From positions 21,702,501-21,766,500 of the forward strand of contig NC_068973.1 of the NCBI RefSeq assembly GCF_016808095.1: 64,000 bases of DNA, in the 5' to 3' direction. Under the pieces are notes generated by a model. The model saw nothing but the letters and a program-made list of their open reading frames with translations. It searched no databases and was not told the DNA's origin. Below are positions 16,404 through 61,391 of the stretch, one piece after another. The DNA is from Vigna angularis. Taxonomy: Eukaryota; Streptophyta; Magnoliopsida; Fabales; Fabaceae. Position 1 is the stretch's first letter, and every line of letters begins with the position of its first letter. The translations under genes were made by a program, and so were the position numbers.

Positions 16404-16653
16404 CTCGTGGTTTAACTAGTCTATTTGTGTGATTTTTGATTATTTTTGATTATTTTTGACTTGTTGTGAATATTGTTTTTCTGTTTTTATTTTCTGTTTT
16501 CTATTTTTATTTTTATTTTATTTTATTTTCTGTTTTTATTTTTGGTTTTTATTTTCTATCTTCTTATCTTTTCAATTATATCTTTTGATTATTTCTTCTC
16601 TTTTCTATCTTTTTGTGCTAACAAAATTTTTCTAGGGTTTTGTTTCCTTGTGT
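16404..16653 (+). other. T-rich leader of element A
   Basis: About 250 bp of T-rich low-complexity sequence (repeats of TTTTTATTTTCTG) between primer site and gag. It ends TTCCTTGTGTATGCAGG, which looks like a polypyrimidine tract plus a 3' splice site just at the gag ATG; the same ending is seen in B, C and D. An intron in the leader is possible but no donor was settled. Confidence 0.55.
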
Positions 16654-17860
16654 ATGCAGGGTAATATTCGGACTAGAAGCAAAAAGATTTTTGAACCTCT
16701 TCTTGAAGGCCTGGACCAAAGTAGAAGGATGAGGAAAGTTCGAACTTCAAGAGAACTATTTCCTTCTCTTGAGATACTCTTACAACCTTCACCACAAAGG
16801 TCTTACCACAACACTCAAAATATGGCAGAGGAGAATAATGGTAGACGGACTCTTGCAGATTACACCACTTTTGTTGGCCCTCAACATTTTAACAGTATAG
16901 CAAGGTCGAGGGTCAATGCTACAAACATGGAGGTGAAACCAGCGTTGATACAGTTGGTGAAAAGCAATTAGTTTAATGGGCTATCACATGAAAGCCTGTA
17001 TGAACATCTCACCACCTTCAAAGAAATCAGTAACACCGTGAAGATAAATGGAGTTCCAGATGAAGCAATCAAGCTTAGCTTGTTTCCTTTCTCATTGGGA
17101 AGCAATGCTAAGTTATGGTTAAATTCTTTTCCAGAAGGTAGTTTTACAAAATGGGAAGCTGTGGTTGCAAAGTTTTTGAATAAGTACTTCCCACAATCTA
17201 AAGTGAATAAAGGGAAGCAAGAGATCTCTTCTCTCAGACAAGGCATGGAGGAGACGTTAGGTCAAGCATGGGGCAGGTACAAAAGCTTTTTGAGAAAGAC
17301 TCCCATGCACGATTTTGATGAAGTAGCAGTAGTTCTACTTTTCCTTGGAGGTCTTGGTTTACAAATCAAGTTGATGTTAGATGCCTCAGATGGAGGTAAT
17401 ATTAAATGTAAAACTCTAGAGGAAGCAACAGAATTGATAGAAAACATGGCTGTTAATGACAATGAAATGCATAGTGAAAAAGGAACCTCTATTCAACCGA
17501 AAGGGGTTCTACAATTGCAGTCAAATGATGCCTTGCTTGCTCAGAATAAGGTTATAACTCAACAGTTAGAGAATCTAACAAAGACACTTACTCAATTACC
17601 GAAGGAATTAAAAACTATTGCTCAAGTTCAACAACAGATGTGTGAACTATGTGGTGGTGACCATATCAATGGTCAATGTGCTTAGTGAAGGCCCTAGAAG
17701 ATGTAAATTTCATGAAAATCAATTTCCATACCGCCAAGGTAATTTCAACCAAGGATGGAAACCTCACCCAAGCATGGGTCAAGGTTAGGGACAATCTGGA
17801 CAAGCTGGGCAATCAGGACAATTTAATAGGCCACAACAACAACCATCATTATGGCAATAG
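16654..17860 (+). pseudogene. Gag of element A (disabled)
   Basis: Gag would form the virus-like particle and bind the RNA. The ATG at 16654 opens MQGNIRTRSKK; the central capsid-like gag domain spans about 17000-17450 (EWEAVV.KFLNKYFPQSK-type motif, here KWEAVVAKFLNKYFPQSK). Near 17640 is a zinc knuckle CELCGGDHINGQC, spaced CX2CX3HX4C, one residue shorter than the usual CX2CX4HX4C. Lesions: TAG at 16969-16971, a small deletion with TAG at 17683-17685, and a shift into the protease frame by 17861, preceded by TAG at 17858-17860. Confidence 0.88.
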
Positions 17861-19204
17861 ATGTCTACACTCACTGAAAAACATACAAAGTTGGAAGAAA
17901 CTCTTAACCAGTTTATGCAGGTAACCATCTCCAATCATAACAGCACTCAAGCAACCCTTAGAAGTTTGGAGATGCAAATCGGACAGTTAACTAAGAAGTT
18001 GGAAGAAAGGCCTGATAAGAGTTTTGCGGCTAATACCGAGGTTAACCCTAAAGAAGAGTGTAGAGTTTTAGTGAGTGTAAATTTTGAAAGAGTTGAGTTA
18101 GAGAGAAAAGAAGAGAAAGAAAAGAAAGTAGAAGAAAAAGAAGAGAGAGTGGAGAGAAAAGAGAAAGAAGAGAAAGAAAATAGAGTAGAGAGAAAAGAGA
18201 AAGAAGAGAGAGAAAAGATAAAAATTGAAGATATTCTTCCTTTTCCCACAGATTATGAGAGATTAGAGAAAGGGAGACAGTTTGGGCATTTTATAGAAAT
18301 ATTCAAAGAATTGGAGGGTGATTTACCTTTGATGGAGATATTGCAACAAATTGCAAATTATACAAAACCCATGGAACAAGTCTCCACAAAGAAAAGACAT
18401 AGAGAAGAGGAGACAAATGATTACAAAGCGGTCAAGAAGAAGCTACTCCCTCCAAAAGAGAAAGATCCAGGAAGTTTCACCATTCCATGTGTCATAGAAA
18501 AGAAAAAGGTAAATAAAGCCCTACTTGATTTAGGGTCAAGCGTTAATTTAATGCCTTATTCTTTACGTGAACAAATGGGTGATCTTAAAGTCAAGCCTAT
18601 AAAGATGAATTTGTTAATGGCGGATGGCTCTTCAAAGAATCTGTATGGTATAGCAGAGGATGTTATGGTTTGTGTTGGAGAACTAAAATTCTTGGTGGAC
18701 TTTGTGGTGATGGAGATGAAGGATGAAAGAGTTCCTATTATTCTGGGAAGGTCGTTTATGAAAACGGCTAAAGTCATCATTGATGTAGATGAAGGAATAG
18801 TGGTGTTTCAAGACTGAGATAAAAATGTGGTGATTGATGTCTTCAAAGAGGAACAGTAGACAGAAACTAGTTATAAAGCTACATATCAAGATGTACTCAT
18901 GATTAGTCCTCAAGATGCAAAGCCAAGATTCAAAGGTAAAAATTGTTTCTTGTTTCAGGATAGGGAAGAAGATCAAGATAGCAAAGGAAGGACGGTTCAC
19001 GATGATGCAAGGCAAGCACAACCCAAACCTGGTAAACATGTGAAATTCAAAAACAGGTTGTGGATTGTTAAAGACTATAAGAAAGATGGAGTGATAGAAA
19101 TTGAGTCTCCACATTCAAGAAGAGTCAAAGAGGTGGACCGGAAGCAGCTGATGAGTTGGTGTGATGAAAGAAAGATAAACACCAACATTGAAGATGGAAC
19201 ATGA
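17861..19204 (+). pseudogene. Protease and C-terminal segment of element A (disabled)
   Basis: Continues the gag-pro polyprotein. A Glu/Lys-rich linker (codons from about 18095 to 18225, with repeats of ERKEKEE) precedes a retropepsin-like domain with the DLGSSVNLMPYS active-site region (about 18525-18560) and the second conserved block IILGRSFMKTA (about 18736). TGA at 18815-18817 (CGA in relatives) and TAG at 18857-18859 interrupt it. The last 100 codons end in KNRLWIVKDYKKDGVIEIES and DRKQLMSW, which resembles the integrase C-terminal tail of element 1. There is no reverse transcriptase downstream. The stop is at 19202-19204. Confidence 0.85.
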
Positions 19205-19218
19205 GTTTTACTTGATCA

Positions 19219-19262
19219 AGCTAGTGACGTTAAAAGAGCACTTTTCTGGGAGGCACCCCAGT
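19219..19262 (+). other. Post-ORF motif, first copy (element A)
   Basis: GCTAGTGACGTTAAAAGAGC is followed by the hairpin CTGGG (19246-19250), loop AGGCAC, CCCAG (19257-19261). It lies 15 bases after the polyprotein stop, as does the motif after integrase in element 1. Confidence 0.85.
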
Positions 19263-19346
19263 TGATTTAAGAACATTATTTTATATTGATATTGGTTGTA
19301 ATTTTTTTAAATTTTGGATATTACTTTTATGTTGAAACTTTTTGGG

Positions 19347-19499
19347 TTAGCATCTACTGATGGATGCTAGGTGGTTAAGTATCTACTGATGGATGCTAGG
19401 TGGTTAAGTATCTACTGAAGTATACTAGGTTTATTAACAGGTTTGTTACACCTACTGATGGGTGTTGGTAAGGCAAAATTGCACCTACTGATGGGTGTT
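19347..19499 (+). other. Array of five small hairpins with a common 8-nt loop (element A)
   Basis: Stems and loops read from sequence: TAGCATC/GATGCTA (19348-19369), AGTATC/GATGCT with one G:U (19378-19397), AGTAT/ATACT (19407-19426, loop 10 nt), ACACC/GGTGT (19448-19465), GCACC/GGTGT with one G:U (19481-19498). The loop is TACTGATG in four of the five. The stems differ while pairing is kept. There is no ORF. Function is unknown; an RNA structure is inferred. Confidence 0.8.
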
Positions 19500-19507
19500 G
19501 GTGGATT

Positions 19508-19560
19508 TTGGGTCAGGCTTGTGACGTTAAACAAGCGCTACCTGGGAGGCAACCCAGTTG
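19508..19560 (+). other. Post-ORF motif, second copy (element A)
   Basis: GTCAGGCTTGTGACGTTAAA then CAAGCGCTAC and a perfect CTGGG-AGGCAA-CCCAG hairpin (19542-19557). GCTTG/CAAGC around the TGACGTTAAA loop could form a second stem. This copy is closer than the first to the one after integrase in element 1. Confidence 0.85.
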
Positions 19561-19719
19561 ATTTACTATATTTTGTTTGTTTTGATTCTGCTTTAGTTGC
19601 ATGTTAGGGATTGAATGTATGAGTGATTTGAGAACTTAAATGCATGGAGTGAGTGAGAGGCATGAGTGGAAGGCACCTAGGGTAAGCTAGGAAGAAAGAA
19701 AACATCTCACGCAAGTGCT

Positions 19720-20475
19720 GCTCAGCGCCAATTACCGCTGAGCGGTACTTATGCAGAATGGTTTTTTGGGTCGCCCTTAGCGGGACCCGAGCCCATTAGG
19801 GTATTTTTATACCCTAGGGTGCGATTTTGGGTTCATTTTCAGATTTCTTTCCTCTCACACACTTCTAAACACTTTTCTAAGAGTTCTCTACATCTTTCCC
19901 TTCATTCCCCTTTACAAAATCCCTCTTCCACTCTCTTTCTCACTAGTTTTGCATCTAAGTTTGGGGTTTGGAGAGAGCATTGTTGTTGGGGCTGAGTTCT
20001 TCACATTCTTAGAACATTTTCTACTCATCTATCATCTCCACCCAAGTAAGTCAAGCAATTTTTCATTCTAGGGTTTTTGAAAGCATGAATTGGTATGATT
20101 ATGAATGTTCAAATCATGATTCTTTAGGGATTTTGATTTCTATGCATGATATGATGAATTAATTGATATTTGAACCGATTAAAATGCTTGATTTTGGTTT
20201 AGAAGTATGAAAATTGCTTGTTGGTGGAGTTAGGAAGTGTTAAAAATAAGCTTTTCAAAATCTGCAGAATCGCCGCTCAGCGGTAATTACCCCTGAGCGT
20301 GACTCTGCCAGACTTGGTTTTTGGCTTCCTTTTCTTGCTGGCTTGGTCCACTGGTTGCGCTGAGGGGATTTTATGACCCTCAGCGGTGGTTTAGCATGGA
20401 TTGGGGATGTTGTTTATGGTTTACTAATGATTAACAACAAGTTTTGTGGTGTTGTAATTTGTGTTTGATGTAGGG
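19720..20475 (+). promoter_or_regulatory. Internal promoter-like block, 5' UTR and intron before the accessory ORF (element A)
   Basis: A TTACCGCTGAGCGGTA palindrome at about 19731-19746 (the same word as in the LTR) is followed 50 bp later by TAGGGTATTTTTATACCCTA (19797-19816), a TATA-like inverted repeat, then a CT-rich leader. A donor GTAAGT at 20046-20051 and an acceptor GATGTAG ending 20473 define a likely 428-bp intron. More palindromes lie inside the intron (about 20272-20395). Elements B and D keep the same order with introns of 424 and 410 bp. Confidence 0.65.
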
Positions 20476-21335
20476 ATGGCATCCTCTCCAAGCAAAAGAT
20501 TGAAGACCACAACCTCCAAGAGGAAAGACAAGGAACCTGAACACCCTCATTCTAGTAGGTTCCTCTCTCGCAAACAACAGAAGCATTTTAAGATTGTTCA
20601 AGATAGGAGACTCCTGATGGAAAGGAAAGCTGGAATGATACCTAACTTTGCTCCTCAGTTTGGAGAACAACTGATGGGAAGAAACTGGAGGAGATTGGCC
20701 AAATACCCTACACTAGCCAACATAGTAGTGGTAAAGGAATTTTACACCAACGCAAGAAAGTTGGGTGATTATCCGGTTGAGGAGTACCTAAGCTATGTTA
20801 CATGCCACGCTATTAGGTATGATCCTAACTCTATCAACAACTTTTTGGGTACTAAATGGGTTGGAGAGTAGTGCCAGTTTGCTCTCTGTATGGAGGAAGG
20901 CACTGATTTTAATGATGTAGAGAGTGTTCTATGTGTACCGGGAGGACACCTCCAGAGGAACATAAATGGTGCAGTGGTGAATATCAAGAGGACTAATTTG
21001 ACTCCTCTTGCTAAGTATTGGATGACATTCTCCCATGCCAACATTCAACCGTGTTCGCATGTTTTAGACATCACTCTCAGAAATATGAGCATTAACATTG
21101 GCCAAGTGATTGCCAATGAAATACAAATGTGTGCCAACACAATGAACAACAAGGCACCTTTAGGGCATCCTTCCTTGATTACACACCTGTGCAAGATAGC
21201 TGGGGTGGATACTTCTGCTCCGCCATTGGAGAGGCCGGGGAAATTCATTGATGAAGCCTATTATAGGCAGTATTGTGGAGGAGAGGAGGCAGCTCAGCCA
21301 GTTCCACCATAACGTCCTCGAAGAGAAAGAAGACT
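20476..21335 (+). pseudogene. Accessory ORF of element A (plant transposon-associated protein family), disabled
   Basis: The ATG lies two bases after the presumed splice acceptor. The product begins MASSPSKRLKTT (basic) and contains RRLLMERKAG, VVKEFYTNA, NIQPCSH and APLGHPSLITHLC, shared with the ORFs of B and D. It matches what I recall as the 'putative plant transposon protein' domain family; its function is unknown. No signal peptide or clear membrane helix is seen, so it is not obviously envelope-like. TAG at 20869-20871 (CAG in B and D), an in-frame loss of about ten codons near 21076, and TAA at 21310-21312 disable it. Similarity stops at about 21335, where element C begins. Confidence 0.8.
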
Positions 21336-21354: not shown

Positions 21355-22189
21355 AGTATTGTCTAGGCGATATTGCTTTTGGGAGAATTTCCCTGGATCT
21401 AGATTTTGCCGTATGTGTTCATATCAATAAAACCAATAATCATGACATTGAATGAGTTAAACAATGCATGCTTTGAGCAAAGAGGAAAAACCCTAACTAA
21501 TGATGAAAGAAAGCATGTATCAAAGATGAGATATTTAAACAAAAAATTCCATATATGAGAGCTTCACAAGATTACATTGTTTCCCCAACAACAAGAAGAT
21601 TTTAGTTCACCATATTCATGGTGAAACTAGATGAAATACAATGAGATAGTGAAAGATAGAACCCTAGAAAGATGAGTAGGTAGCCTTAACATCCAAGATC
21701 TTCCTCCAAGGTGTGGAAATGTGTGTATTTGCTTCGTACTCTACCAAAGATACAAACCCTAGGAAGTCCTAAAGCTTATATACCATTCGAAATATTACAG
21801 AAAAGTGGGCCTAAGCCCAAAATAATGGCGCTCAGCGGTAAGTGCGTGTGTTGTATTCTTCCCCTCAGTTGCACTTTCACCCCTCAACGGAGCCAACGGG
21901 TGTTCATTAGTGCCGCTCAGCAGTAAACTGGCGCTGAGCGGTACTTGCAGCTTCTCCTCTTTTGCACTTTTTGAGTTCTTTTCCGATTCCATCTCTATCC
22001 TTCTTCACTTCTTTCATCAAATTCACCTCAAAATCTGCATAAAACACTGAAATCAAGCATAAACCTGTCCAACTCTCTTATTTCTGAAAATGTAATCAAA
22101 AACATGATTCCAAGCTAGTTTCTAAGTGTTAAAGGTTGCTTGTAGTATCAATTTTAGACATGAAAATAACAGTTTTTCAACTGTTATCA
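21355..22189 (-). repeat. Truncated 3' LTR of element C
   Basis: The right edge CAACTGTTATCA (22189) is the LTR start on the minus strand. The TATA box and CCGCTCAGCGG palindromes (about 21825-21945) are present. The LTR's 3' part is missing; sequence begins at about 21355 in the GTCTAGGCGATATTG block. Confidence 0.8.
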
Positions 22190-23442: not shown

Positions 23443-23741
23443 CTAGGTTGCCTCCCAGGTAGCGCTTGTTTAACGTCACGAGCCTGACCCAAAATCCTCC
23501 AGCACCCTTCAGTAGATGCAAATCTTTCTTACCAACACCCATCAGTAGGTGTATACAAACATAGTATCCTTCAGTAGATACTCTTCCGCCTAACATCCAT
23601 CAGTAGATGTAAACCCTGTAACAAACTTATAACAAAAATACCCAAAAATTCAAAATTACATCACCAAACTAAAAATTAAAAGTTCTTAAATCACTAGGTT
23701 GCCTCCCAGCAAGCGCTCTTTTAACGTCACCAGCTTGACCC
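23443..23741 (-). other. Motif-hairpin-motif block of element C
   Basis: Second motif at 23443-23490, first motif at 23693-23741, both with the GGGAGGCAAC hairpin core. Between them are four hairpins with stems, in plus-strand order: GCACC/GATGC (23502-23519), ACACC/GGTGT (23535-23552), AGTATC/GATACT (23563-23582), ACATC/GATGT (23593-23610). The 8-nt loop is CATCAGTA or CTTCAGTA on the plus strand, that is TACTGATG or TACTGAAG in sense. Confidence 0.8.
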
Positions 23742-23756
23742 AATAAAACTCAAGTT

Positions 23757-25513
23757 CTTTCTTCTTTTTCTTCTTTCTACTGAACTTCTTCAGGAATTTG
23801 ATAAAACCAGGAACCTGTTGCAATGTCTCAATCATAGGAACTTTAATCTCCAATTTCTTGAAGATTTCCATAAAGCGCTCAAATTCCTTCTTCCTATAAT
23901 ACTTCTTTGGATGAGGAAGAGGTTTTTCATATCATTCTTTCTTTTTTTCTCTCGTCCTCTTTTTCTTTTCTCTCACTTTCTTTTTGCTTTCTTTTTTTCC
24001 ACTCACTTTCTTCATCTTCACACAAATTTTCTCTTCTTCTTTCTCTTCTCTCTCATTTCTCTCTTCTTTTTCCAACTCAACTTTTTCTACATTTACCCTC
24101 ACTGGCACTTTACACTCTTCCTTGGGGTTAACCTCAGTATTAGCCCCAAAATTCTTGTCAGGCCTTTCTTCCAACTGCTTAGTAAGTTGACCCACTTGAA
24201 TCTCCAAGTTCTTAATAGCAGCTTTAGTGCTCTTTTGAGTGGATTCAGTTTTCTGTATGAATTGCTGAAGAGTTTCTTCCATCCTTATTGATCTTTCATT
24301 AAGTATAGACATTTATTGCCAAAAGGTTGGTTGTTGTTGTTGCTTGTTAAATTGCCCTGCTTGTCCAGCTTACCCACTTTGTCCTTGACCAATGCTTGGG
24401 TGTGGTTTCCACCCTCGATTGAAGTTCCCCTGACGGTATCGAAATTGATTGGCCATGAAGTTAACATCCTCTAAAGCTTCCACTGGAAAGGCGCATTGAC
24501 CATTGATATGGTCACCTCCACATAGTTCACAATCTGTTGTTGAACCTGTGCAACAGTCTTTAACTCTTTTGGTAGTTGTGCAAGTGCCTTTGTGAGATTC
24601 TCCAGTTGTTGAATTATTATTTTGTTCTAAGATAACAAGGCATCATTGGATTGCAACTGTAGAACTCTTTTTTGTTGAATAAGAGCTCCTCTTTCACTTT
24701 TCAGCTCATTGTCATTAGTAGCCATATTTTCAATTATTTCAGTGGCTTCCTCTGGAGTCTTCCATTTAATATTTCCTCCAGCTGAGGCGTCTAACATCAG
24801 CTTGGTTTGTGAACCAAGACCTCCAAGGAAGATTAGGACTACTTCTACTTCGTCAAATCCATGTCTGGGAGTCTTTCTTAATAGGCTTTTGTACCTGTCC
24901 CATGCGTGACCTAGTGATTCCTCCATGCCTTACCTGAAAGATGAGATCTCTTGCTTTCCTTTGTTTACCTTGGATTGTGGGAAGTATTTGTTCAAAAACT
25001 TTGTCACCATAGCTTCCCACTCTATAAAGCTCCCTTCTGGAAAAGAGTTCAACCAAAGCTTAGCATTGCCTCCCAATGAGAAAGGAAACAAGCTAAGTTT
25101 GATTGCTTCGTCAGGCACCCCATTTATCTTCACTGTATTGTAAATTTCATTAAAGGTTGTGAGGTGCTCATATGGGTTTTCATGTCACAACCCATTAAAT
25201 TGATTACTCTTAACCAGTTGGATCAACCTGATTTCACCTCCATGTTGGCTGCATTGACCCTCGGTCTTGCTATGCTGTTAAAATGTTGAGGGCCAACTAC
25301 ATTGGTGTAATCTGCAAGAGTCCGTCTAACATTATTATTCTCCATCTCCTCAATGCTATGGTGAGAACCTTGTGGTGAAGGTTGTAAAAGATCTTCCGGA
25401 GGAGGGAAAAGTTCTCTAGATGTACAGATTCTTCTCCTCCGTCTACTCTCGTCTAAGCCTTCAAGAAGAGGTTCCGAGGTTTTCTTGCTTCTAGTTCGAA
25501 TTGCTTCCTGCAT
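23757..25513 (-). pseudogene. Gag of element C (disabled, protease deleted)
   Basis: The ATG is at 25513 (MQEAIRTRSKKTSEP), capsid-like domain at about 25133-24640 (FLNKYFPQSKVNKGKQEISS), zinc-knuckle region near 24500 degraded. The reading frame is broken between about 25223 and 25133, at 24927, at 24627 and near 24312. Reading then passes through an Arg/Glu/Lys-rich linker and directly into the post-polyprotein spacer, with the protease and C-terminal segment deleted. Confidence 0.82.
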
Positions 25514-27142: not shown

Positions 27143-28690
27143 GATATATATCTCTCTGTTAGACTCAGTCATCCATGTTTGAATATATGATTTTCTGGAA
27201 TTTAATGTGTTTCCAGATGGTTGGGTGGTCTGAGGTTCGAGAAAGCCATAAACTGACGCCCGACCTGATTCCACTACGATGGTGTCCATGTACCTGAAAG
27301 AATAAAGTTAAGTATATTTATTAAAAAGTAATAATACTAATATACAAATTGGAAAATAACAAATAAAAAACTTACATGCACCATAGTTGTATGCATGAAA
27401 TGTTCAACATTTTTTCTCCACCAATGATCTCATATGCATCATCGAAATTAATATACAATGGAACATGGCACTCGAGGCCAAATGTTCTTAACTCCAATAG
27501 CATCTCTACCGGTCCTTTTCTCAACTTATTTAATCTGGAGGTCAATATGGATATAGCATCATGGTCTTCTACTTCCTCATGAGCCCCATTCACAGGTTGA
27601 GCAATTGGTTGTCTCCTAGGACGGTAGACTTTGAACTTACATTTACAAAAGTTAGGAATCGTTTAATTATAACTTGACGATTTAAGATAATAAAAAAAAG
27701 AATATAATACTGCTTGTGGGCCAAAATATGGCATGATCATAGCCTTAGGCCAAGCTATGAATGTGCCTAAGGCCTCCCCCACGAATTAGATTTCAGATGT
27801 AGGCACTAGCACTCGAGCCTGGGGGTCTCTTGGATCATCAATCATTACCCACGCGTGAGTGGGCAATAAAGGAGCACCATGAATGGTCTGGCCTCCTGCA
27901 ATCTATCATCCCACGGCCACTAGCGTAGAGGATCCTCATTAACCAAAAACTCATACCGAATATTGTAATCAGTACGATCTGCAATAGAGCATCACCCTTT
28001 GGTGCTCACATGAGGTGCAGTAGGATCATCTGTAGGGGCGTCCTCCTGCTGTGACTGTTGTTGTTGCTCTTATTGTTCTTGTTGTTCTTGTTGTTCTTGT
28101 TGTTGGGTGATCATCGCAAGTTTTTCTTCAAGCATTCTTAAGCGTTCACCCATGCTTTCCTCTAATTCGACTTGCACCGATTGCCTGATGCTACTAACGA
28201 TTTCCTGAGTCACGACTTCTGTGCTTCTTGGTTTAGGGCCAAAGTAGTCCCTCAATCCAATAGCTCCTTCAACAACACACACACGACCAAGACGGTCTAG
28301 CCGACCTGTGGCTGCTACTAGGAGGTCCTCCCTACCTTGTGCCACAAATGTGCCTTGACTCTGTTGGTCAACCAAGTCATCCTGCATATCATAATGAAGA
28401 TTAGACACATTAAAAATTTTGTTCCATAATTTTTTTATGAACTATGGTAATTAGTTAGAAGTTTCCACTTACAATTCTCTAGGATATCTCCTGAGAAGAC
28501 TGGGATGTAAACTGGCCATTGGACTTTGTCCATGTAGCCTTCCACAATTCATGTCTAGCTAGTGGAGGTGCTAGATCAGGTGACTCAAGATCTAACTCCT
28601 CAGCGCGACGTTTTCTCATCTTTTTCTCTAATAACGCATAATCACCACGTGACAGTACGTGTGGTGTATCCATCAGTAGATGCTGTCATT
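27143..28690 (-). pseudogene. Fragment of a spliced transposon-type gene (CACTA / Ulp1-associated style)
   Basis: Three coding blocks on the minus strand belong together: 28673-28479 (DTPHVLSRGDYALLEKKMRK, LARHELWKATWTKSNGQF), 28408-28070 (QGTFVAQGREDLL, IGLRDYFGPKPRS, ending in a QQEQQEQ run) and 27593-27372 (NKLRKGPVEMLLELRTFG, VPLYINFDDAYEIIGG). Between the first two, GTAAGT (plus 28467-28472) and an acceptor ATATGCAG (28382 side) define a 91-bp intron. Further coding-like sequence (VGEALGTFIAWP near 27760) contains stops. Such proteins occur in legume CACTA-like transposons and Ulp1-type genes; this assignment is from memory. Both ends are cut by LTR elements. Confidence 0.5.
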
Positions 28691-31726: not shown

Positions 31727-32019
31727 GTCGAGCTAATGACTTTAAAAGAGCGCTGGCTGGGAGGCACCCAGTGATTTGAGAACATTAATTTCATTGAATT
31801 TATTTATTTTGGTGATGTAATTTGAAACTTTGGAACATTGTTATATTTCGGTTTAGCATCTACTGATGGATGCTAGGTTGGTGAGTATTTACTGAAGGAT
31901 ACTCAGAAGGTACACGTACTGAAGGGTGATGGTAAGATTTGCACCTACTGATGAGTGTTGGAAGATTTTGGGTAAGGCTCGTGACGTTAAAAAAGTGCTA
32001 CGTAGGAGGCAACCCAATT
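31727..32019 (+). other. Motif-hairpin-motif block of element B
   Basis: First motif with CTGGG-AGGCA-CCCAG (31757-31771). Hairpins: TAGCATC/GATGCTA (31854-31875), GAGTATT/GATACTC with one G:U (31883-31904), two weakened ones at 31912-31930 and 31941-31958. Second motif at about 31975-32019, where the GGGAGG stem has decayed to TAGGAGGCAACCCA. Conserved loop TACTGATG or TACTGAAG. Confidence 0.78.
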
Positions 32020-34176: not shown

Positions 34177-34202
34177 GATAGCATCTACTAATGGATGCTA
34201 TC
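34177..34202 (+). other. Nine-bp hairpin after the accessory ORF (element B)
   Basis: GATAGCATC (34177-34185), loop TACTAATG, GATGCTATC (34194-34202): a perfect 9-bp stem 11 bases after the stop. The loop is one base different from the array loops. Element D has the equivalent at 41195-41220 with a changed stem. Confidence 0.82.
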
Positions 34203-35248
34203 AACACTAGAGCAGGACTTTTCTTATCTTTTATTTTGTATTATTGAACTTATTTGCTTCTGTTTTTAGAATAGGTTGTGATGTACTCAGTTTGAAACTT
34301 TATCTGATGTGATGGTTTGATTGACTTGTGCATGATGAGTATTGCTTGATGATGCTTGGATATTGATTGATGTTGAGATTGTACACCATATGCTGAAATA
34401 CAGGTGGTTGTTCACAAGCTATTTGAACAGATGCATGATGTTGTGATTGTGATTATGATGCTAAGCAGGATTTGTATCTGGAATATATTGAATGTTAAAT
34501 GAGCCTATATGTGAGGTTTTGAACTCCAGAGTTTTTGTGAATGAGGACTATTACTTTGAAAGCATGAATGACTTTGCCCAGGTTTCTGTGATTGAATCAA
34601 TTGCTTGCATGTGTCATATGATCAAGGCCATCTGTTGTTATCCCTTTTTAGCCAATGCATGATTTTAACCCAGTAAAAGAGAGCACAAGGTGTTCTATCC
34701 TTTGAACCTCTAGCCTTGGACATGATATGAAAACCCTTTTGGAAAATCTTTACCTTGAGTTAAGTTGAGAATATTTGTGGTATTGATAAAGGTTCAAGTT
34801 TAGGGTTGTTGGGAAATTTGAAAAGGGAAAATAAATAAGCATTGAGCTAAGTGTTGAGCAAATGAAAAGCAAAAGAAAAAGGAAAGAAAAAGAAAGAAAA
34901 AGAAAAGCTCAATGCAAGGGAAAGTTAGGAAGAAGTGAGAATGGTTTTGAATGACTCTCTTAACTCATGGATTTTGTGATCTAGAAAATCCAATTTTCTT
35001 ATTAACCCAACCACATTATAAGCCATAAAGAAGTCCTTGTGATGATGCTTGCTTGTGAATGTGTTTGATTATGGTTAAATAAAAGGCAAAGTTGATCCAT
35101 GTGACATTGTGATAGTAGAGTGAATGAGTGACCTCTATATACACTTGTGTGATTGAGTGAAACACTTTATCTGGTGAGGAATGATTCCATGAGCACTTGA
35201 CTACATCTATGCTTAGTTAATTGATCATTCATGAGAATAACATTAATG
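34203..35248 (+). other. 3' UTR of element B
   Basis: Matches element 1's 3' UTR from TGAACTTATTTGCTTCTG onward, including the purine-rich tract near 34862-34910. It is cut before the polypurine tract by the reversed LTR at 35249. No gene is supported. Confidence 0.75.
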
Positions 35249-41194: not shown

Positions 41195-41220
41195 GATAAC
41201 ATTCATTAGTAAATGCTATC
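41195..41220 (-). other. Nine-bp hairpin after the accessory ORF (element D)
   Basis: In sense: GATAGCATT, loop TACTAATG, AATGTTATC. Compared with element B the C:G pair next to the loop is T:A, and one pair is G:U in sense (A:C on the other strand). Confidence 0.82.
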
Positions 41221-43325: not shown

Positions 43326-43655
43326 TGGGTTGCCTCCCAGGTAGCGCTTGTTTAACGTCACGAGCCTGACCCAAAATCCACCAACACCCATCAGTAGGTG
43401 TTACAAAATCCACCAACACCCATCAGTAGGTGTTACAAACTTACCAGCACCCATCAATAGGTGCAAAATTTTCTCACCAACACCCATCAGTAGGTGTTAC
43501 AACTTAGCAGCCTTCAGTAGATGCTATGTCCAGCAAAATATTTACACAATAATGTTCAACAAATTAAAAATTACAAAACCAAAATAAAATCAAAAGTTTT
43601 TAAATCACTGGGTTGCCTCCCAGCAAGCGCTCTTTTAATGTCATTAGCTTGACCC
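43326..43655 (-). other. Motif-hairpin-motif block of element D
   Basis: Second motif at 43326-43372, first motif at 43607-43655. Between them five hairpins (plus strand): AACACC/GGTGTT three times (43383-43402, 43415-43434, 43479-43498), GCACC/GGTGC (43447-43464), AGCAGC/GATGCT with one mismatch (43506-43525). Loops CATCAGTA, CATCAATA or CTTCAGTA. Confidence 0.82.
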
Positions 43656-43663
43656 AGTAAAGT

Positions 43664-46081
43664 TCAAGTTCCTTTTTCATAGTTGATGTTGTTATCCCAC
43701 CAACTCCTCAGCTGTTTCCTGTGCACTGTTTTGATTGTTCTAAGACATGGAGATTCTATCTCTATCATCTCCTTCTCTTTGAAGCCTTTCACAACCCACA
43801 ACTTGTTTTTGATTCTCACGGGTGCACCAAGTTGGGATCTTCTTTTCTCCCAGTCATCAGGAATTTCTCCTCCTCTTCCAATCTTTTCTTCCTTTTTCAC
43901 CTGAAACAACAAACAATGGTTACCTGCAACCTTGGGATTTTCATCTTTATGGCTAGTCATGTGTGCATCTTGAAATGCAGCTTTATAACTAGCTTCTTCC
44001 TCCTGTGTTTGCGTCTCATCTTTAAAGACGTCTACAACCACTCTCTCCTCTCGGTCCTGGAGAACCACTATACCTTCATTTACATCAATGATAGCTCTGG
44101 CCGTTTTCATAAATGGTCTTCCAAGTATGATAGGTATCTTCTCTGTCTCCATCTTCATCACCACAAAGTCTTCCAAGAACTGGAGTTTGCCAACACAAAC
44201 TATAACGTCCTCTGCAATCCCACATGGTTCCTTTGAAGATCCATCGGCCATTACTAACTTAACCTTTACAGGTTTCATATTAACATTACCGATTTGCTCC
44301 AGTAAAGAGTAAGGTATCAAGTTAACACTTGAACCTAAATCAAGAAGAGCTTTCTTAACCCTTTTCTTCCCTATGGTACAAGGGATAGAAAAACTTCCTG
44401 GATCTGTTGCTTTAGGAGGGAATGGCTCTTTTTTAACAGTTAAACACTCCTTTACCTCATCATCTCTACGTCTTGTCTTTGTAGAGATGTTTTCATCAGA
44501 TTTCGTGTAAACTGTGATTTCTTGTAGAATCTGCTCCCAAGGTGCATCATTATCTACCATCTTGAATAATTTTGTGAAGTCAAGTTGTTTCCCTTGATGC
44601 ATTGGAAAAAGAGAAGTATTTTTGCTCTCTATTTCTTCTGTTTCTCCTGTTTCTAACTCAATTGTCTCATCTTCAGCGCTCTCTACTACCTTGCATTCTT
44701 CTCTAGGGTTAACCTCAGTATTAGCCCCAAAATTTCTATTTGGCCTTTCTTCCACCTGCTTGGTGATCTGCCCCATCTAAGTCTCCAAATGTTTGATAGT
44801 AGCTTCAGTGCTCTTTTGGGTAGACTCAGTTTTCTGTATGAAATTGTTGAGAGTTTCCTCCATCCTCATGGACCTTTCGTTAAGCATAGATAATTGTTGC
44901 CATAAGGTGGGTTGCTGCTGTTGCTTATTATATTGACCAGCTTGCCTCGTTTGCCCTTGACCAATACTTGGGTGTGGTTTCCACCCCTGATTGTAGCTCC
45001 CTTGACGGTACTGATTGGTCATGTAGTTTACATCCTCTACGGCTTCAACTGGAAAGGCACATTGACCATTGATATGGTCACCTCCACACAATTCGCACAA
45101 CTGGGATTGTACCTGTGCAGCAATCTTCAACTCTTTGGGTAATTGTGCAAGAGTTTTAGTAAGAGTCTCCAGCTGATGAGTTAGAATTTTGTTTTGAGCT
45201 AGCAAGGCATCATGTGTCTGTAATTGGAGAACTCCTTTTTGTTGCATAGGAGCTCCTCTCTCACTGTGCAGCTCATTATCACTAGTAGCCATATTTTCTA
45301 TAATCTCTGTTGCTTCCTCTGGAGTTTTCCATTTAATATTGCCTCTTGCCGAGGCATCCAGCATCATCTTGGTTTGTGAACCAAGACCTCCAAGGAAAGT
45401 TAAGACTACTTCCTGATCTTCAAAACCATGCGTGGGAGTTTTACGTAACAAGCTTTTATACCTGTCACATGCATGCCCCAGTGATTCTTCCATGCCCTGT
45501 TTAAATGAAGAAATCTCTTGCTTGCCTTTACTCACCTTTGATTGTGGAAAGTACTTGTTTAAAAATTTGGTTACCACTGCTTCCCACTCTGTGAAACTTT
45601 CTTCTGGGAAAGAATTTAACCAACGCTTAGCATTGCCTCCCAATGAGAAAGGAAACAAGCTAAGTTTGATCGCTTCATCTGGCACCCCATTTATTTTGAC
45701 TGTGTTGCAAATCTCATTAAATGTAGTGAGGTGCTCATACGGGCTTTCATGAGATAACCCATTGAATTGATTGCTCTTCACCAGTTGGATTAATGCTGGT
45801 TTGACCTCCATGTTAGCTGCATTGACTCTAGGTCTAGCTATACTGTTAAAGTGCTGAGGTCCAGCAATATTGGTGTAATCAGCAAGAGTTCTTCTATTAT
45901 TATTGTTCTCCATATTTTCTGTGCTAGGGTCAGAACCTTGTGGTGATGGTTGCAACAGAGTTTCCAGAGAAGGAAAGAGTTCTCTAGATGTTCGGATTCT
46001 TCTCCTCCGTCTACTCTCGTCTAGACCTTCAAGAAGAGGTTTTGTTGTTTTCTTGCTCCTTGTTCTAATTGCTTCCTGCAT
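43664..46081 (-). pseudogene. Gag-protease-C-terminal polyprotein of element D
   Basis: A single frame from ATG at 46081 to the stop at 43664, about 805 codons, with one internal TAG at 44777-44779. Order: basic N-terminus, capsid-like gag domain (about 45770-45400), zinc knuckle CELCGGDHINGQC (about 45085), linker, retropepsin-like domain with DLGSSVNLIPYS (about 44300) and IILGRPFMKTA, then the segment ending KNKLWVVKGFKEKEMIEIES and HRKQLRSWWD. There is no RT. If the TAG were suppressed or read through, the frame would be whole. The last segment resembles an integrase C-terminal tail. Confidence 0.88.
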
Positions 46082-46266
46082 GCACAAGAAAACAAAACCC
46101 TAAAAAAATTGGTTAGCACAAAAAGATATAGGAGAAGATATAATATTCAGAGAATAAAATAAAATAAAATAAAAATAAAATAAAATAAAATAAAAACCGA
46201 AAAAATAAATTCAACGGTAGTCAAAGATAATCAATAATCACACAAATTAACCAGTTAAACCACGAG

Positions 46267-52869: not shown

Positions 52870-55287
52870 CTTGACACACTTCCACACTAAAGAAACGAAA
52901 TTACACTATTACAATGTTCAAATGTGATCTTGGAATTGCTTCAAGAGCATTTTCCCAAGTCACTTAGCTAAAAACCAAAAATCAACTTGAAACAGCAAAG
53001 GTTCCGTGATATAGTGACTTAAACAAGCCTAAAATAATGCCTAAAACTAGTGTAGGCTTCAAACTTTGGCTGCTATTGTTTGTCACTCCAAAACAGGTTG
53101 CAAATCAAGCTTTTCTAGTGTATTTTTGGTGCTGGAACAGCAGGTTTGCAGCTGCTCAAAAGCCCCCTTTCTGTTTCCACTTCAGCCTCCTTTTCACTTC
53201 CTAATATGCTACCTCAGTAGGTGAAAATTTCTGCTCCTGGATGCCTCACAATAGCTGCCACAGCACCTCAAGATTCCACTCAAAACACACCAAAAATAAT
53301 TAGCAAACTGCACTAGAATTTGAAACCAGATTTTTAAACTTTTGACAATTTGTAAGGTTCTATAAGCCTGGATGCCTCACAATATGCTACCTCAGTAGGT
53401 GAAAATTTCTGCTCCTGGATGCCTTACAATAGCTGCCACAGCACCTCAAGATTCCACTCAAAACACACCAAAAATAATTAGCAAACTGCACTAGAATTTG
53501 AAACCAGATTTTTAAACTTTTGACAATTTGTAAGGTTCTATAAGCTTGGATGCCTCACAATATGCTACCTCAGTAGGTGAAAATTTCTGCTCCTGGAAAC
53601 AGCAAAGGTTCCGTGATATAGTGACTTAAACAAGCCTAAAATAATGCCTAAAACTATTGTAGGCTTCAAACTTTGGCTGTTGTTGTTTGTCACTCCAAAA
53701 CAGGTTGCAAATCAAGCTTTTCTAGTGTATTTTAGGTGCTGGAACAGCATGTTTGCAACTTCTCAAAAGCCCCCTTTCTGTTTCCACTTCAGCCTCCTTT
53801 TCACTTCCTAATATGCTACCTCAGTAGGTGAAAATTTCTGCTCCTGGATGCCTCACAATAGCTGCCACAACACCTCAAGATTCCACTCAAAACACACCAA
53901 AAATAATTAGCAAACTGCACCAGAATTTGAAACCAGATTTTTAAACTTTTGACAATTTGTAAGGTTCTATAAGCCTTTTATCACTTCATTATACTTCTTT
54001 TGATCATTCATTTTCATTCTCAAACATTGAACCAACTTTTTCCACAATCCAGAAATGAATTTGAACAAGAAATACCAAAACAGTGGCTGGAAAGTGTATT
54101 CTGCACCAGAAAAAGTGGACTGAGATGATGGTTTTAAACCCAATTTTGATTGGAAGTGATTCAGTAGTTCAATTGATGCATCAAACAACTTTGTATCATC
54201 ATTTTAAAGATGTTTAAACATTGAAACAGCTGGAAAACAAATTGCAATGTGAATTCACTGGTTCACTTCCAAATTAACCCAAAAAGTGATGGTTTAAAGT
54301 GCAAATCTGCATATAGGCCTACTTTTGACCAAATGAACAGTGCTAGCAACTTTAGATCATCAATTTAAACTTTCTCAAACTCTTATACAACACAGAAACA
54401 ACAGATTTCAAAACATCACCTCTGCTGTACCAAATTCTACAATAAAATGCACCAAATTTCCACCAAAATAGTTTTAAAAGAAACAAAGGCTGGAACAATG
54501 ATCAAATTGACTCAAGAAGATGTAACTCTACTGAACTAAGCTAGAATTGAGATGCTTAGCATGACCAAACTTAGATTACAGAATTCAAAGAAACTTAGCA
54601 CGGTGAAAAGCTTGGATTAAAAACTGAAACAATGGAATGCTATTAATTGTGAGCAACCAAGCTATGCAAATTGCATTTCATTACTTGTAATGGTCTGCTA
54701 CACATTTAGCCATGTCCAATAACATCAAATAAAGTTGTACAATGGTTCAGAAACAGAAAAATTCAACTGAAACAGATTCAAAGAAAACTTAAACCAGAAA
54801 TGAATTTTCAATCAAATTTGAAACTTGAACCAAAGTTTTAGTGATTCTGCTCATATCACCAAGGCTAGATTAAGCTCTCATTGCCTTATTTGGTTGATAT
54901 ATGAATTCACTTTCATCTGAACTCAAGCACATCCAAAAACCAAAGCAGGAAAAACCAGATTTAATGACAAATTAAAACACTACATCAGAATTTTGAGCAC
55001 ATGACTTTAACATACTAGAATTGAATTCTAAAGTTGGAAGAGACATAAGCAAGAATGATTCACCGTTTAAAATAAGTAACAAACATGTATGAACACTGGA
55101 AACACAACACAACAACAGGAAACACAAAATTAATGACTGGAAAAAGTAAAATAGAAGCAACAAAAATACTCAAAACAGAAACTAGAAAACTGAAACAGAA
55201 AGCACAACAAAATGCATAAATGGAATGCAAAGATGGAGGAATAGCTTAGCTCTTGGTACGTGGACGACCTAAGCTCAAGATACCACT
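52870..55287 (-). other. Long 5' UTR of the chromovirus-like element
   Basis: About 2.4 kb with no credible ORF, rich in A and C on the plus strand. It holds a complex tandem repeat at about 52990-53975 and ends at a TGGTATC sequence (reverse strand, 55279-55285) next to the LTR, a partial match to an initiator-Met tRNA primer site (TGGTATCAGAGC); the following bases differ. Confidence 0.6.
52990..53975. repeat. Complex tandem repeat: about 178-bp units inside a 600-bp duplication
   Basis: AATATGCTACCTCAGTAGGT occurs at about 53203, 53381, 53559 and 53809. The first three are 178 bp apart; the block starting AACAGCAAAGGTTCCGTGAT at about 52991 recurs at about 53599. Copies are nearly identical, so the expansion is recent. 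Confidence 0.82.
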
Positions 55288-56817: not shown

Positions 56818-57954
56818 CTAAGACTCATCATTACTATCGGGAACATAGAGTTTTGCAAGTTTGTCATCAATCTCCTTAAGATGATTATTAATTTCATCAT
56901 AGCGAAGAGTGTGATAAGCCATCATATCATCCATCCTTCTTTGTTGCATAGAGGCCATTTCTTCAATTTGTCTAGATATACTTTCGAGACTATATTCTTG
57001 TGGAGGATGGGATGGGCCAGCAACATTTGTTGGATGAGGCATAGGAATATCTTCATCTTCTTCAGCTGATGCGTCCTCTTCTTGTGCAATATCATCTTCA
57101 GCACGGACAAACATATTTCCTTGTCGTATAAACCCCATTTGATGCAATGCTGATTCCTCAATTTCATGATTTCTTAAGACGGTGAGATATTTCTCTCCCG
57201 TAACATCAACTCCTTTATAAACACAGATTAAGGAAATAAGGAGGGGATATGGAAGATGACTTCTATCATACCTCTTTGCCCGGACAATAGTGTCGGAGAT
57301 GAGATCTGCCCAATTGATTTTGATATTTTGAGTAATGGCAGACATGATCATGAGATCAATTTCAAAGCATTGTGCTAAATTTGAGCCTCTTGGACAAAGC
57401 AACCATACAATAAGATAATGAAGAACCCTTTCCTCCATTCTAAGATTTCCTACTAGAAGATATCTCCTATTTGGTAGAGGTTGTTGAGGGTTGCGCATGA
57501 AAGAGCGATATGCCAAAATTTTGTTAAAATCACCAAAGTCATTTGGCACATGCATGGTATTTTCTAAGATGGGAAGATGAGCAACATTTGTCCAAATGTC
57601 ATTATCCAGAATGATATCTATCCCTTTTACACGAGTGTAAACAATACCATTTTGGGATTTTAGATTGTAGTAGAATACTCTTACCAAATCTGGATAGTAA
57701 CTCCCTTGAAGTTGCAGTAGATGCTGGACACCTTGCTCAATCAATTGCTGAGAAAATTGAAATTGATGTGTGGTAAACCAATTGAGATCTACAAATTTTT
57801 TACGAAGAATCTTGCGTTCTTTCCACATTTGTAGATATTCTTCATGCTTTCCATCATCGGAAATCCACCCTTGAATATTTGGACCACGTGCAATAGGTGT
57901 GCTTTCCGATCCATAGCTTCTTCTTCTTCTTCTTCTTCTTGATGGTTCAGCCAT
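56818..57954 (-). CDS. Accessory ORF of the copia element (plant transposon-associated protein family)
   Basis: An intact 378-codon ORF from ATG 57954 to 56818. The N-terminus is basic (MAEPSRRRRRRRSYGS). The middle contains YYPDLVRVFYYNL, RVKGIDIILDNDIW, KINWADLISDTI and LPYPLLISLICVYKGVDVT, which follow the pattern of the accessory ORFs in A, B and D. The C-terminal third is acidic (QEEDASAEEDEDIPMP), then a likely coiled coil (ESISRQIEEMASMQQRRMDD to LKEIDDKLAKLY). No signal peptide or membrane helix is seen, although SIRE elements are known for an envelope-like ORF in this place. It has no stop or frameshift, unlike pol beside it. Function is unknown. Confidence 0.85.
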   Translation of the reverse strand: MAEPSRRRRRRRSYGSESTPIARGPNIQGWISDDGKHEEYLQMWKERKILRKKFVDLNWFTTHQFQFSQQLIEQGVQHLLQLQGSYYPDLVRVFYYNLKSQNGIVYTRVKGIDIILDNDIWTNVAHLPILENTMHVPNDFGDFNKILAYRSFMRNPQQPLPNRRYLLVGNLRMEERVLHYLIVWLLCPRGSNLAQCFEIDLMIMSAITQNIKINWADLISDTIVRAKRYDRSHLPYPLLISLICVYKGVDVTGEKYLTVLRNHEIEESALHQMGFIRQGNMFVRAEDDIAQEEDASAEEDEDIPMPHPTNVAGPSHPPQEYSLESISRQIEEMASMQQRRMDDMMAYHTLRYDEINNHLKEIDDKLAKLYVPDSNDES

Positions 57955-58256: not shown

Positions 58257-61200
58257 TTAACATGTTTTCAATATCCCTAAATCTCTTCTAAGCTCATAGA
58301 ATCTATCTTTAGGCAATGCTTTGGTGAAAATATCAGCTAATTGATGTTGGGTATCAATATATTCTATTTCACAATCTCCTTTTTGCACATGATCTCTAAG
58401 AAAGTGATGCCTAATCTCAATGTGCTTGGTTCTAGAGGGCATTATGGGATTCTTTGTAAGGTTTATTGCACTTGTATTATCACACTTAAGTGGTATATGA
58501 TCTAAATGAATGTCATAATCTTCTAATTGTTGTTTCATCCATAAAATTTGCGCACAGCAATTTCCCGCAGCAATATATTCAGCCTCAGTGGTAGATAAAG
58601 CTACACAGGCTTGTTTCTTAGAATGCCAAGAAACTAAGGAACTACCTAGAAGATGACATGTTCCACTAGTGCTTTTTCTATCTATCTTACAACCTCCATA
58701 ATCTGCATCGGAAAATCCTACAAGACTAGGTTCCGTTCCAGATGGATACCATAAACCAAAGGATGCAGTTCCATTAAGATATTTCAATATTCTTTTAACT
58801 GTTGTAAGGTGAGATTCTCTAGGACTAGATTGATACCTAGCACACACACAAACACTCTGCATAATATCTGGTCTACTAGCAGTGAGATATAGCAAAGAAC
58901 CTATCATACATCTATATTTAGTTTGATTTACCTCTTTACCTGACTCATCTTTGTCAAGATAGCAAGAGGTTCCCATAGGTGTAGATGCTTCCTTTGCTTT
59001 GTCCATTTCAAACTTCTTAAGAATTTCTCTACAATACTTAGTTTGAGAAATGAACGTACCTTCTTTCATTTGCTTAATTTGAAGACCGAGGAAGAATGTT
59101 AATTCTCCCATCATAGACATTTCAAATTCACCCTGCATAGTCTTAGCAAATTCTTCACAAAGAGATTTATTAGTTGATCCAAAAATAATATCATCAACAT
59201 ATACTTGAATAATCAAAATATGTTTTCCGACTCTTTTAATAAACAAAGTGGAATCAACTTTTCCTCTATTAAAATCATTTTCTAAAAGAAAATTGCTAAG
59301 TCTTTCATACCAAGATCTAGGTGCTTGTTTTAAACCATAAAGTGCTTTCTTTAACTTATAGATGTGATTTGGAAATTTAAAATCTTCAAAACCGGGTGGT
59401 TGTTCAACATACACATCTTCTTTTATAAAACCATTTAGAAATGCACTTTTAACATCCATTTGAAATAATTTAAATTTCATTATAGATGCATAAGCAAGAA
59501 ATAGGCGTATTGCCTCTAACCTGGCAACTGGAGCATATGTCTCATCATAATCTATACCTTCTTCTTGACTATATCCTTGAGCCACAAGCCTAGCTTTATT
59601 CTTGGTGATGTTTCCATCTTCATCCAGTTTGTTTCTGAATACCCATTTTGTTCCAATTACTTGATGAGTATCTTCTCTAGGAATCAATTCCCAAACTTGA
59701 TTTCTTTCAAATTGGTTGAGTTCTTATTGCATTGCTATACACCATTGTTCATCTTGAAGAGCTTCCTTAATGTTCTTAGGTTCTATCTGCGACATGAAAG
59801 CTACATTCATACAAAAATTAACTAAATTTCTTCTAGTGTTTACCCCTTTTGATATGTCGCCAATGATGTTGTCCAATGATAATCCTCTAGGTTGTTGCCA
59901 TATTTTGTTTAGATCTTCATCATCTTGAGGATTATTCATTTTCTCTTCATTGGTTGTCTTTTGCAAGTCTTCATTTTCACCTGCATCTGATTCATCTGAC
60001 TCAAGAGGTTTTACCTCAAGGTCCACAATTTCATCAAAGACAACATGCACAGATTCTTCTATTTCAAGTGTTTTCCGATTAAAAACTCTATAAGCTTTGC
60101 TAGTTAGAGAATATCCTAGAAAAATAGCTTCATCGGATTTGGAATCAAATTTTCCTAAATTTTGTTTTCCATTATTTAAGACAAAACATTTGCATCCAAA
60201 AATTCTTAAATGTGAAACATTTGGTTTTCTACCTTTAAAAAGTTCATAAGGAGTACATTTCAAAATTGGCCTAATAAGCATTCTGTTCAATACATAACAT
60301 GCAGTACTCACAGCATCAGCCCAAAATTGTTTAGGAACACTATATTCATTTAACATAGTTCTAACAAGTTCCTCTAAGGATCTATTCTTTCTTTCTACAA
60401 CTCCATTTTGTTGAGGAGTTCTAGGTGCAGAAAAATTATGAGAAATGCCATATTCTTCACAAAAAGTTTCAAAAGATTCATTTTGAAATTCACCTCCATG
60501 GTCACTTCTAATAGCCTTTATTTTCAAATCTTTTTCATTTTGAACTAAATTTGCAAACTTTTTAAATTCTTTGAAAGCTTCACTTTTAAGAGTAAGAAAG
60601 AAAGTCCAAGTATATCTTGAATAATCATCTACAATAACTAAGGCATAATAATTTCCTCCAAAACTTTTTATCCTAGAGGGACCAAATAAATCCATGTGCA
60701 AAAGTTCTAAGGGTTTTAAACTAGAAACAACATTTTTCGAATGAAAAGATGATTTCACTTGTTTTCCCTTTTGACATGCATCACACAATTTATTTTTCAC
60801 ATATTTTAGTTTTGGTAAACCAATTACTAGGTCTTTAGAAATGAGTTTATTCAATTGTTGCATATGAATATGTGCAGCTCTTTTATGCCATAACCATGGA
60901 TTTTCTTCTTTTACTACTAAACATGAAATATTCCTATTTGATGCATTTTCTAAGTCAATCAAATAAATATTGTTATGCCTAATTCCTTTCAAAGCAATTT
61001 CAGAAGAATCATTTTTATAAATAGTGCAAGAATTTTGTTCGAAAGTTACCTTGAATCCTTTATCGCATAATTGACTAATGCTAATTAAGTTATGCTTTAA
61101 TCCTTCCACATATAGCACGTCTTTGATCATCAAGGTATCTTCACTTCCAATATCTCCAATTCCAAGGATTTTTCCTTTGTTGTTATCACCATAGGTGACA

Positions 61201-61391
61201 AAGCCCCGTTCCTTTTTCCAGAAGCTTGTAAATTTCTTTTTATCTCCGGTCATGTGTTTTGAACATCCACTGTCAAGACACCACATATACTTCCTTGGTT
61301 TTGATAATTCCTACAACATAAAAAGAACAAGCTATTTAGGTACCCAACTACTTTGTATGGGTCCTTTGGGTTAGATTTAAAAAGATTAAAA
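58257..61391 (-). pseudogene. Protease, integrase and RT-RNase H of the copia element
   Basis: Reading leftwards: protease [13 protein letters not shown] (about 61275), GAG-pre-integrase with WHKRAAH and CDACQKGK, integrase core with Asp (HMDLFGPS), Asp (RSDHGGEF) and Glu (NGVVERKNR) all present, then RT with YVDDIIFGS and RNase H with SDADYGG and [10 protein letters not shown]; stop at 58257. Breaks: TAA at 59724-59726 (Glu usual) and several stops in 61287-61391 between gag and protease. Enzyme motifs look intact, so the decay is recent or confined to stops. Confidence 0.9.

Follow-up and report, generated by a model that had tools for sequence, protein, structure and literature searches.

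A row of hairpins with a near-constant loop and variable stems upstream of the env-like gene in Calypso/Athila-type retrotransposons of Vigna angularis

Retrotransposons of the Calypso/Athila type in Vigna angularis carry, 5' of the env-like gene, a short array of hairpins in which the loop is nearly constant and the stems vary. The common, lineage-level stem types retain their pairing, whereas the rare, mostly copy-private changes do not. On the basis of these data, it is likely that the paired structure has been maintained by selection. The best reading of the array, to which we give a probability of about 0.4 from sequence comparison, is that it may be a repeated RNA recognition site on the full-length retrotransposon RNA.

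The hairpin array of element A and its surroundings

The window analyzed here, that is, the whole stretch of 64 kb, contains four arrays (in elements A-D) with 18 array hairpins, all of them between the same two motifs. Array A is located on the + strand between two copies of a conserved motif, 3' of the gag-protease region and 5' of the env-like ORF of a Calypso/Athila-type retrotransposon. Five hairpins with a nearly shared loop had been proposed here in a preliminary description, and all of them could be identified at 19347-19498:

19347-19370, + strand: hairpin A1, UUAGCAUC-UACUGAUG-GAUGCUAG, seven Watson-Crick pairs and one U.G
19378-19397, + strand: hairpin A2, AGUAUC-UACUGAUG-GAUGCU, six pairs, one of them U.G
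19407-19426, + strand: hairpin A3, AGUAUC-UACUGAAG-UAUACU, five pairs, with a C.U mismatch adjoining the loop
19448-19465, + strand: hairpin A4, ACACC-UACUGAUG-GGUGU, five pairs
19481-19498, + strand: hairpin A5, the last of the array, GCACC-UACUGAUG-GGUGU, five pairs, the outermost (fifth) being G.U

The stems as first drawn needed some amendment in detail, namely for the U.G of A2, the C.U mismatch of A3 and the G.U at the fifth pair of A5. The loops start at 19355, 19384, 19413, 19453 and 19486, and are UACUGAUG in four hairpins and UACUGAAG in one. In the sense strand, hairpins with the UACUGAUG loop could form two extra pairs (A-U and U.G), which leaves a CUGA tetraloop. A search of the window for CTACTGATGG with at most one mismatch gave 20 matches, some of them outside hairpins, compared with 3.03 expected from shuffles (largest value 8). 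When the whole of array A was folded, the z score was not unusual in the sense strand (-1.13) and reached -2.67 in the antisense strand.

The order of parts in element A is gag, protease with a C-terminal tail, motif 1, array, motif 2, leader and env-like region:

16648-17682, + strand: gag region (tblastn with element D gag; PF03732 in ORF 17038-17685)
17978-19201, + strand: protease and C-terminal tail (tblastn; weak aspartyl protease matches to PF13650 and PF09668, below the cut-offs)
19224-19260, + strand: motif 1 (GTGACGTTAAAAGAGCACT...GGGAGGCACCCCA), 5' of the array (sequence comparison of copies)
19506-19556, + strand: motif 2 (TTTTGGGTCAGGCTTGTGACGTTAAACAAGCGCT...GGGAGGCAACCCA), 3' of the array, with a CAG|G boundary at 19516/19517
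20473-21297, + strand: env-like region, broken by one stop (tblastn with the element D env-like protein)

The space between the protease tail and motif 1 of element A is too small for reverse transcriptase and integrase. Throughout elements A-D, tblastn found no integrase, and the gap between protease and motif 1 is too small for pol. Motifs 1 and 2 are akin, since both carry GTGACGTTAAA, an AAGCGCT-like stretch and the GGGAGGCAACCC dyad. This GTGACGTTAAA..AGCGCT...GGGAGGCAACCC motif (19224-19260, 19506-19556 and 1331-1366) is found after the stop of gag-protease or of pol; the compared copies conserve it strongly, and it contains a dyad of its own.

Several other features of the window were also noted. 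Upstream of the env ATG, GTAAGT at 20046-20051 and GTAG at 20470-20473 have the appearance of an intron within the env leader. GC-rich dyads, CCGCTGAGCGG or CCGCTCAGCGG, are present at 19735-19745, 20273-20283, 21829-21838 and 21913-21941, in the env leader and the LTR region of Athila-type elements; they sit where Sirevirus palindromic motifs are reported, and one of them, AGCGGTASTACCGCT, looks similar to these. An ORF at 56818-57954 (- strand), adjoining a Ty1/copia pol (58257-61286), matched PF20167 at 46.2 bits (cut-off 45), so that the same domain as in the env-like ORF of the Ty3/gypsy elements occurs beside a Ty1/copia pol. Two 384-base copies that are 97% alike and a 217-base pair that is 99% alike lie close together at 52986-53976.

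Other arrays in the window and the hairpin 3' of env

The remaining three arrays are listed below, together with a lone hairpin that elements C and D have after the env-like gene:

23497-23615, - strand: array B, four hairpins
31851-31963, + strand: array C, four hairpins, the third broken (G.G and A.A)
43379-43529, - strand: array D, five hairpins
34177-34202, + strand: lone post-env hairpin of element C, GAUAGCAUC-UACUAAUG-GAUGCUAUC, nine pairs
41195-41220, - strand: lone post-env hairpin of element D, GAUAGCAUU-UACUAAUG-AAUGUUAUC, with a two-sided change adjoining the loop and one G.U

In both elements this hairpin has nine pairs and lies about a dozen bases 3' of the likely env stop. It was present in 19 copies, 10 of which have nine standard pairs, and the two-sided change adjoining the loop was seen in three copies (L012, L030 and element D of the window). 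Among the 171 cells of the 19 copies, 8 were G.U and 8 were A.C. One A.C mismatch is common to 7 of the 19 copies, which counts against the reading as a recognition array. A further loop match at 28671 (- strand) showed poor pairing and was left out of the analysis.

At 34203-34290, and at the same place in other copies, a T-rich stretch following the post-env hairpin ends in TTTTTAG and resembles a splice acceptor. In addition, the gag coding stretch at 24132, 30538 and 44713 can form GGGGCUAA-UACUGAGG-UUAACCCC, or nearly so, with a loop resembling that of the array; this is probably a coincidence of a conserved protein motif, and the stretch was set aside.

Abundance of the array in the genome

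Motif 2 (51 letters, at most three mismatches) was found at 729 + 740 = 1469 sites in the 448-Mb genome of 33 contigs, and the reversed pattern at none. Similarly, the loop TACTGAWG followed after 8-20 nt by TTTTGGGTCAGGCT occurred at 507 + 478 = 985 sites, and its reversed pattern at none. Pattern and protein searches of viral and prokaryote collections, with the queries chosen here, detected no related plant copies.

For 60 sites picked by motif 2 alone (zero mismatches, on contigs C1 and C2, from 100 listed of the 1469), we examined stretches of 481 bases. At least two family loops were present upstream in 59 of them, which speaks for the recognition-array reading; the exception was L068, where motif 2 directly adjoins an integrase ORF. 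The protease tail could be identified in 27 of these short stretches, integrase in 2 and neither in 31. A separate set of 39 loci, each with about 3 kb on either side, was picked by similarity to array A and is therefore a biased sample.

The hairpin set contained 418 hairpins from 106 motif 2 sites (103 with at least two loops), which were accepted by their loop and not by pairing. Seven hairpin-like variants (8 copies) that were too far from any common type were left out, one of which (GACACT/AGTGTT, 2 copies) is changed on both arms and pairs throughout; three single-loop sites and two motif-1-like sites without a loop were also left out, and the common-versus-rare comparison set six aside. 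The number of hairpins per array varies, from two upwards and mostly from three to five. In 98 of 103 arrays, the distance from the A in the loop of the last hairpin to the G of the downstream CAG|G is exactly 25 nt, and 96 of the 103 have an intact CAGG.

Pairing in common and rare stem types

Two-sided changes were observed at four of the six pairs among the 20 hairpins of the window (18 distinct). In shuffles of the window hairpins, which ignore relatedness, the percentage paired, the number of cells with two-sided changes and the covariation score were each reached in 0 of 500 trials, whereas the counts of pairs showing two-sided changes (reached in 58 of 500) and of pair types (72 of 500) were not exceptional.

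In the genome-wide set, eight common stem types (at least five copies each) accounted for 356 of the 418 hairpins, and all of their 40 core cells (five pairs per type) were paired. Random re-dealing of the 3' arms among the eight types gave 40 of 40 in only 55 of 20,000 trials. Two-sided swaps occur at the second, fourth and fifth pair counted from the loop, five of the eight types have U.U at the sixth pair, and the common core stems could be linked by six steps with one changed pair per step. The rare variants gave a different picture, with 13 changes to G.U, 11 to A.C and 19 to other mismatches, and with no two-sided change in the type classification and one in the common-versus-rare comparison. 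Such rare, mostly copy-private changes are probably decay after insertion. At the five core pairs, changes that keep pairing made up 6 of 6 among the common and 11 of 40 among the rare ones (Fisher P=0.0013 with the cut-off set to either 5 or 8 copies; 0.27 at 3, 0.04 at 4 and 0.0056 at 10), a contrast of common with rare changes within one genome rather than a tree-based test.

Compensatory changes beyond chance were found, with two of five shuffle measures unexceptional and a Fisher P value that depends on the cut-off. The preliminary claim of a near-fixed loop on stems kept paired by two-sided changes was borne out in the window shuffles and in the 418 hairpins of a family with about a thousand places in the genome. 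It should be noted that individual copies do change without compensation, which had been named beforehand as evidence against the claim; in the contrast of common with rare changes over the 418 hairpins of one genome, the claim was not refuted.

Constancy of the loop and evidence on the strand

Among types with at least eight copies, one of eight loop columns varies (U/A) versus six of ten core stem columns; with types of at least five copies included, the numbers are three of eight and six of ten. Rare changes fall on both parts at similar rates, with 39 at the 8 loop sites and 59 at the 10 stem sites. The UACUGAAG loop was present in 137 of the 418 hairpins.

It had also been suggested that the imperfect pairs are G:U in the sense RNA. 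This holds for the common types, where G.U is present in two (42 and 8 hairpins) and A.C is absent, but not for the rare changes (13 G.U versus 11 A.C) or the post-env hairpin (8 versus 8). For every one of the nine commonest hairpins, stability is higher in the sense than in the antisense strand, partly because the loop can close further. In contrast, the 92 distinct arrays had a mean fold z of -2.37 in the sense and -3.40 in the antisense strand, and a mean stem probability of 0.56 and 0.61, respectively. The better antisense values of whole arrays may arise because the arms of neighboring hairpins can pair with each other in the sense strand. Overall, the evidence on the strand tilts weakly to the sense RNA and does not settle the question.

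Lineage and pol-bearing relatives

The two proteins nearest to the protease ORF of element D carry the name V. angularis, and those of other Vigna species come next. The elements have the gene content of the Athila/Calypso lineage. Gag and aspartic protease are both present, with PF03732 in elements D and A and PF13650 above its cut-off only in D. Downstream, the env-like ORFs of elements C and D match PF20167, a domain that we take to be the Calypso env-like gene, and element A has a homologous region. The LTRs of element D are 97.9% alike, and its primer site lies 5 nt after the LTR and starts with TGGCGCC, so that the assignment to tRNA-Asp is one of position and start. A tRNA-Asp primer site 5 nt after the LTR is likewise given for Calypso/Diaspora of soybean in the accessible text of that report (PMC1142308), according to which env-bearing and env-less relatives also coexist; unlike the present elements, no hairpin array is described there. 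In element D (43664-46087, - strand), the gag and protease ORFs share one frame with a single stop between them.

An element at the start of the window shares LTR and 3' sequence with elements A-D and bears pol, its integrase matching rve and H2C2. The relevant feature, from motif and ORF search, is as follows:

1331-1366, + strand: motif 2, immediately 3' of the integrase ORF in the pol-bearing element, without an array

This element has neither env nor array. In L068, also pol-bearing, there is no array before motif 2, in a 481-base stretch too short to show env. Both array-less elements count against the recognition-array reading.

That the array might be confined to pol-less elements was suggested by the finding of integrase in only one of the 39 array loci (L020, where it is located at a different, array-less motif 2 site). 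This view was overturned by L073, in which one stretch runs from the integrase C-terminus through a stop, motif 1 and the array of four hairpins to motif 2, and by a search with a pol-end pattern. The pattern (at most two mismatches) found 53 + 80 = 133 sites in the genome, and on contig C1 at least two of the 16 sites listed are followed, after 218 nt, by an array site, a lower bound from strict lists. Thus, the array belongs to the stretch between pol and env.

Discussion

We propose that the array would act as a cis-acting RNA structure, a row of hairpins between the end of gag-pol (or the equivalent position in pol-less copies) and the env-like gene, with a further copy of the hairpin just 3' of that gene in many elements. 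The loop would be the recognized part, and the stem would merely present it. The array could thereby offer several adjacent sites on the full-length RNA to the Gag or Pol of the element or to an RNA-binding protein of the host, and binding might mark this RNA for nuclear export or packaging, away from env splicing. A recognized RNA site appears to fit best, given the structure and its placement, a last hairpin at a set distance from motif 2, and the recurrence of the loop 3' of env. Plausible roles are export, packaging and a restraint on splicing. Pairing of the loop with another part of the element was also considered and rejected, as CATCAGTA and CTTCAGTA are absent from the sense strand of element D.

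Splicing is also the core of a serious rival, which we nevertheless consider unlikely. Here the array would be a signal for the env-like mRNA, with the loop UACURAU as branch point and TTTTGGGTCAG|G in motif 2 as acceptor; the hairpins would mask the branch points and keep splicing partial, and the predicted junction is CAG|GCTCGTGACG. A loose plant-type branch-point consensus accommodates each of the loop variants UACUGAU, UACUAAU and UAUUGAU, and both the 25-nt distance from the last loop A to CAG|G (98 of 103) and the retention of CAGG (96 of 103) would be expected. A spliced env-type mRNA has moreover been reported for barley Bagy2, as far as the accessible text goes (PMC7264820). However, the common UACUGAAG loop (137 of 418 hairpins) is a poorer branch-point fit, four or five branch points are more than splicing requires, TTTTGGGTCAGG is also retained by the pol-bearing element without env at the start of the window, and close relatives may simply have inherited a fixed distance. 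Even less can be said for translational coupling, in which the UGAUG of each loop would be a stop-start overlap passing ribosomes along the array. A spacing of 29 nt does put the AUG of one loop in frame with the next UGA (A1-A2 and A2-A3), but only 116 of 307 listed spacings, a listing that includes motif-1-anchored rows, are in phase (29, 32 and 41 nt), near the third expected by chance, and a third of the loops (137 of 418) have UGAAG without an AUG. With spacings mostly out of phase, a phased stop-start chain was rejected, and coupling in general is very improbable.

Two other explanations, both improbable, dispense with a function of the RNA. The array might be neutral, an imperfect palindrome repeated in tandem that spread through copying errors of reverse transcription, with arms matched by template switching instead of selection. 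Its varying length would agree with this, as would the accessible accounts of tandem repeats 3' of pol, common in Tat/Ogre and Retand elements (PMC7004042, PMC11963269), and of template switching that can create and mend stems (PMC8794818). A mechanism of perfect copying, however, should not leave common G.U stem types (42 and 8 hairpins), and it is hard to reconcile with the six single-pair steps that link the common core stems, with the constant distance between last hairpin and motif 2 seen in 98 of 103 arrays, or with a non-tandem copy having the same kind of loop 3' of the env-like gene. Alternatively, the repeated dyads might be a site on the DNA, 5' of the env-like gene, for a transcription or chromatin factor. 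Antisense stem pairing is equally good, rare changes show no strand bias, and the accessible text on Sirevirus palindromic motifs puts 77 of 79 linker copies at the same position upstream of env (PMC2829016). On the other hand, the Sirevirus motifs keep the sequence of the palindrome, whereas the array varies in its stems and nearly keeps its loop, and the common imperfect core pairs are G.U in the sense strand only.

These Sirevirus motifs are among the closest known systems. According to the accessible text, they cluster upstream of ENV and in the LTR, are proposed factor sites and share a CGG-CCG core in 12 of 13 listed cases (PMC2829016). Like the present array, they are several short dyads of unknown function clustered before the env-like gene of a plant LTR retrotransposon; unlike it, they belong to Ty1/copia elements and are near-constant palindromes discussed as DNA regulatory motifs. 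The array stems vary and contain no CGG-CCG core. The repeats of Tat/Ogre and Retand are also units of variable number 3' of gag-pol and before the 3' LTR (PMC7004042, PMC11963269), but are hypervariable monomers able to seed satellites, with no fixed loop or stem covariation described in the accessible texts; in contrast to them, the present arrays are short, with the last unit at a fixed distance from motif 2.

RRE and CTE, which serve the export of retroviral RNA, and the coat-binding hairpins of phages are recognized by loop or bulge, sometimes repeated, and located on full-length RNA. In foamy virus, the accessible report describes RNA sites of which PES recruit Pol and PARM activate protease, and RNA sites can be needed for the packaging of Pol (PMC3705302). 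As in the reading preferred here, structured RNA of a retroelement is recognized by an element protein, a likeness by analogy alone; PES, unlike the array, are located in the pol coding sequence, and that text describes no repeated hairpin array. Rfam gave no match at gathering in the window and none at E≤1 in 19180-19620. No published description of such a hairpin array was found in a literature search that did not cover the original Calypso and Bagy2 reports, so that a prior description may exist. Element strings searched in the literature matched, judged by title, no paper on such an element; the GGGAGGCAACCC string was matched in literature on E. coli.

To our knowledge, few cis-acting RNA structures are known in plant Ty3/gypsy elements. 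More speculatively, the array could represent a new class of plant retroelement RNA, a loop-specific docking array by which an element-encoded protein would gather full-length RNA for export or packaging, with pol-less relatives packaged together with the enzymes of pol-bearing partners; we regard this wider proposal as doubtful. The array is short, repeated and abundant, with a near-fixed loop, and could easily be tested by probing and pull-down. If the recognition-site reading is true, it would provide a handle on how such elements keep their full-length RNA apart from the spliced RNA of env, and on how copies without pol grew so numerous.
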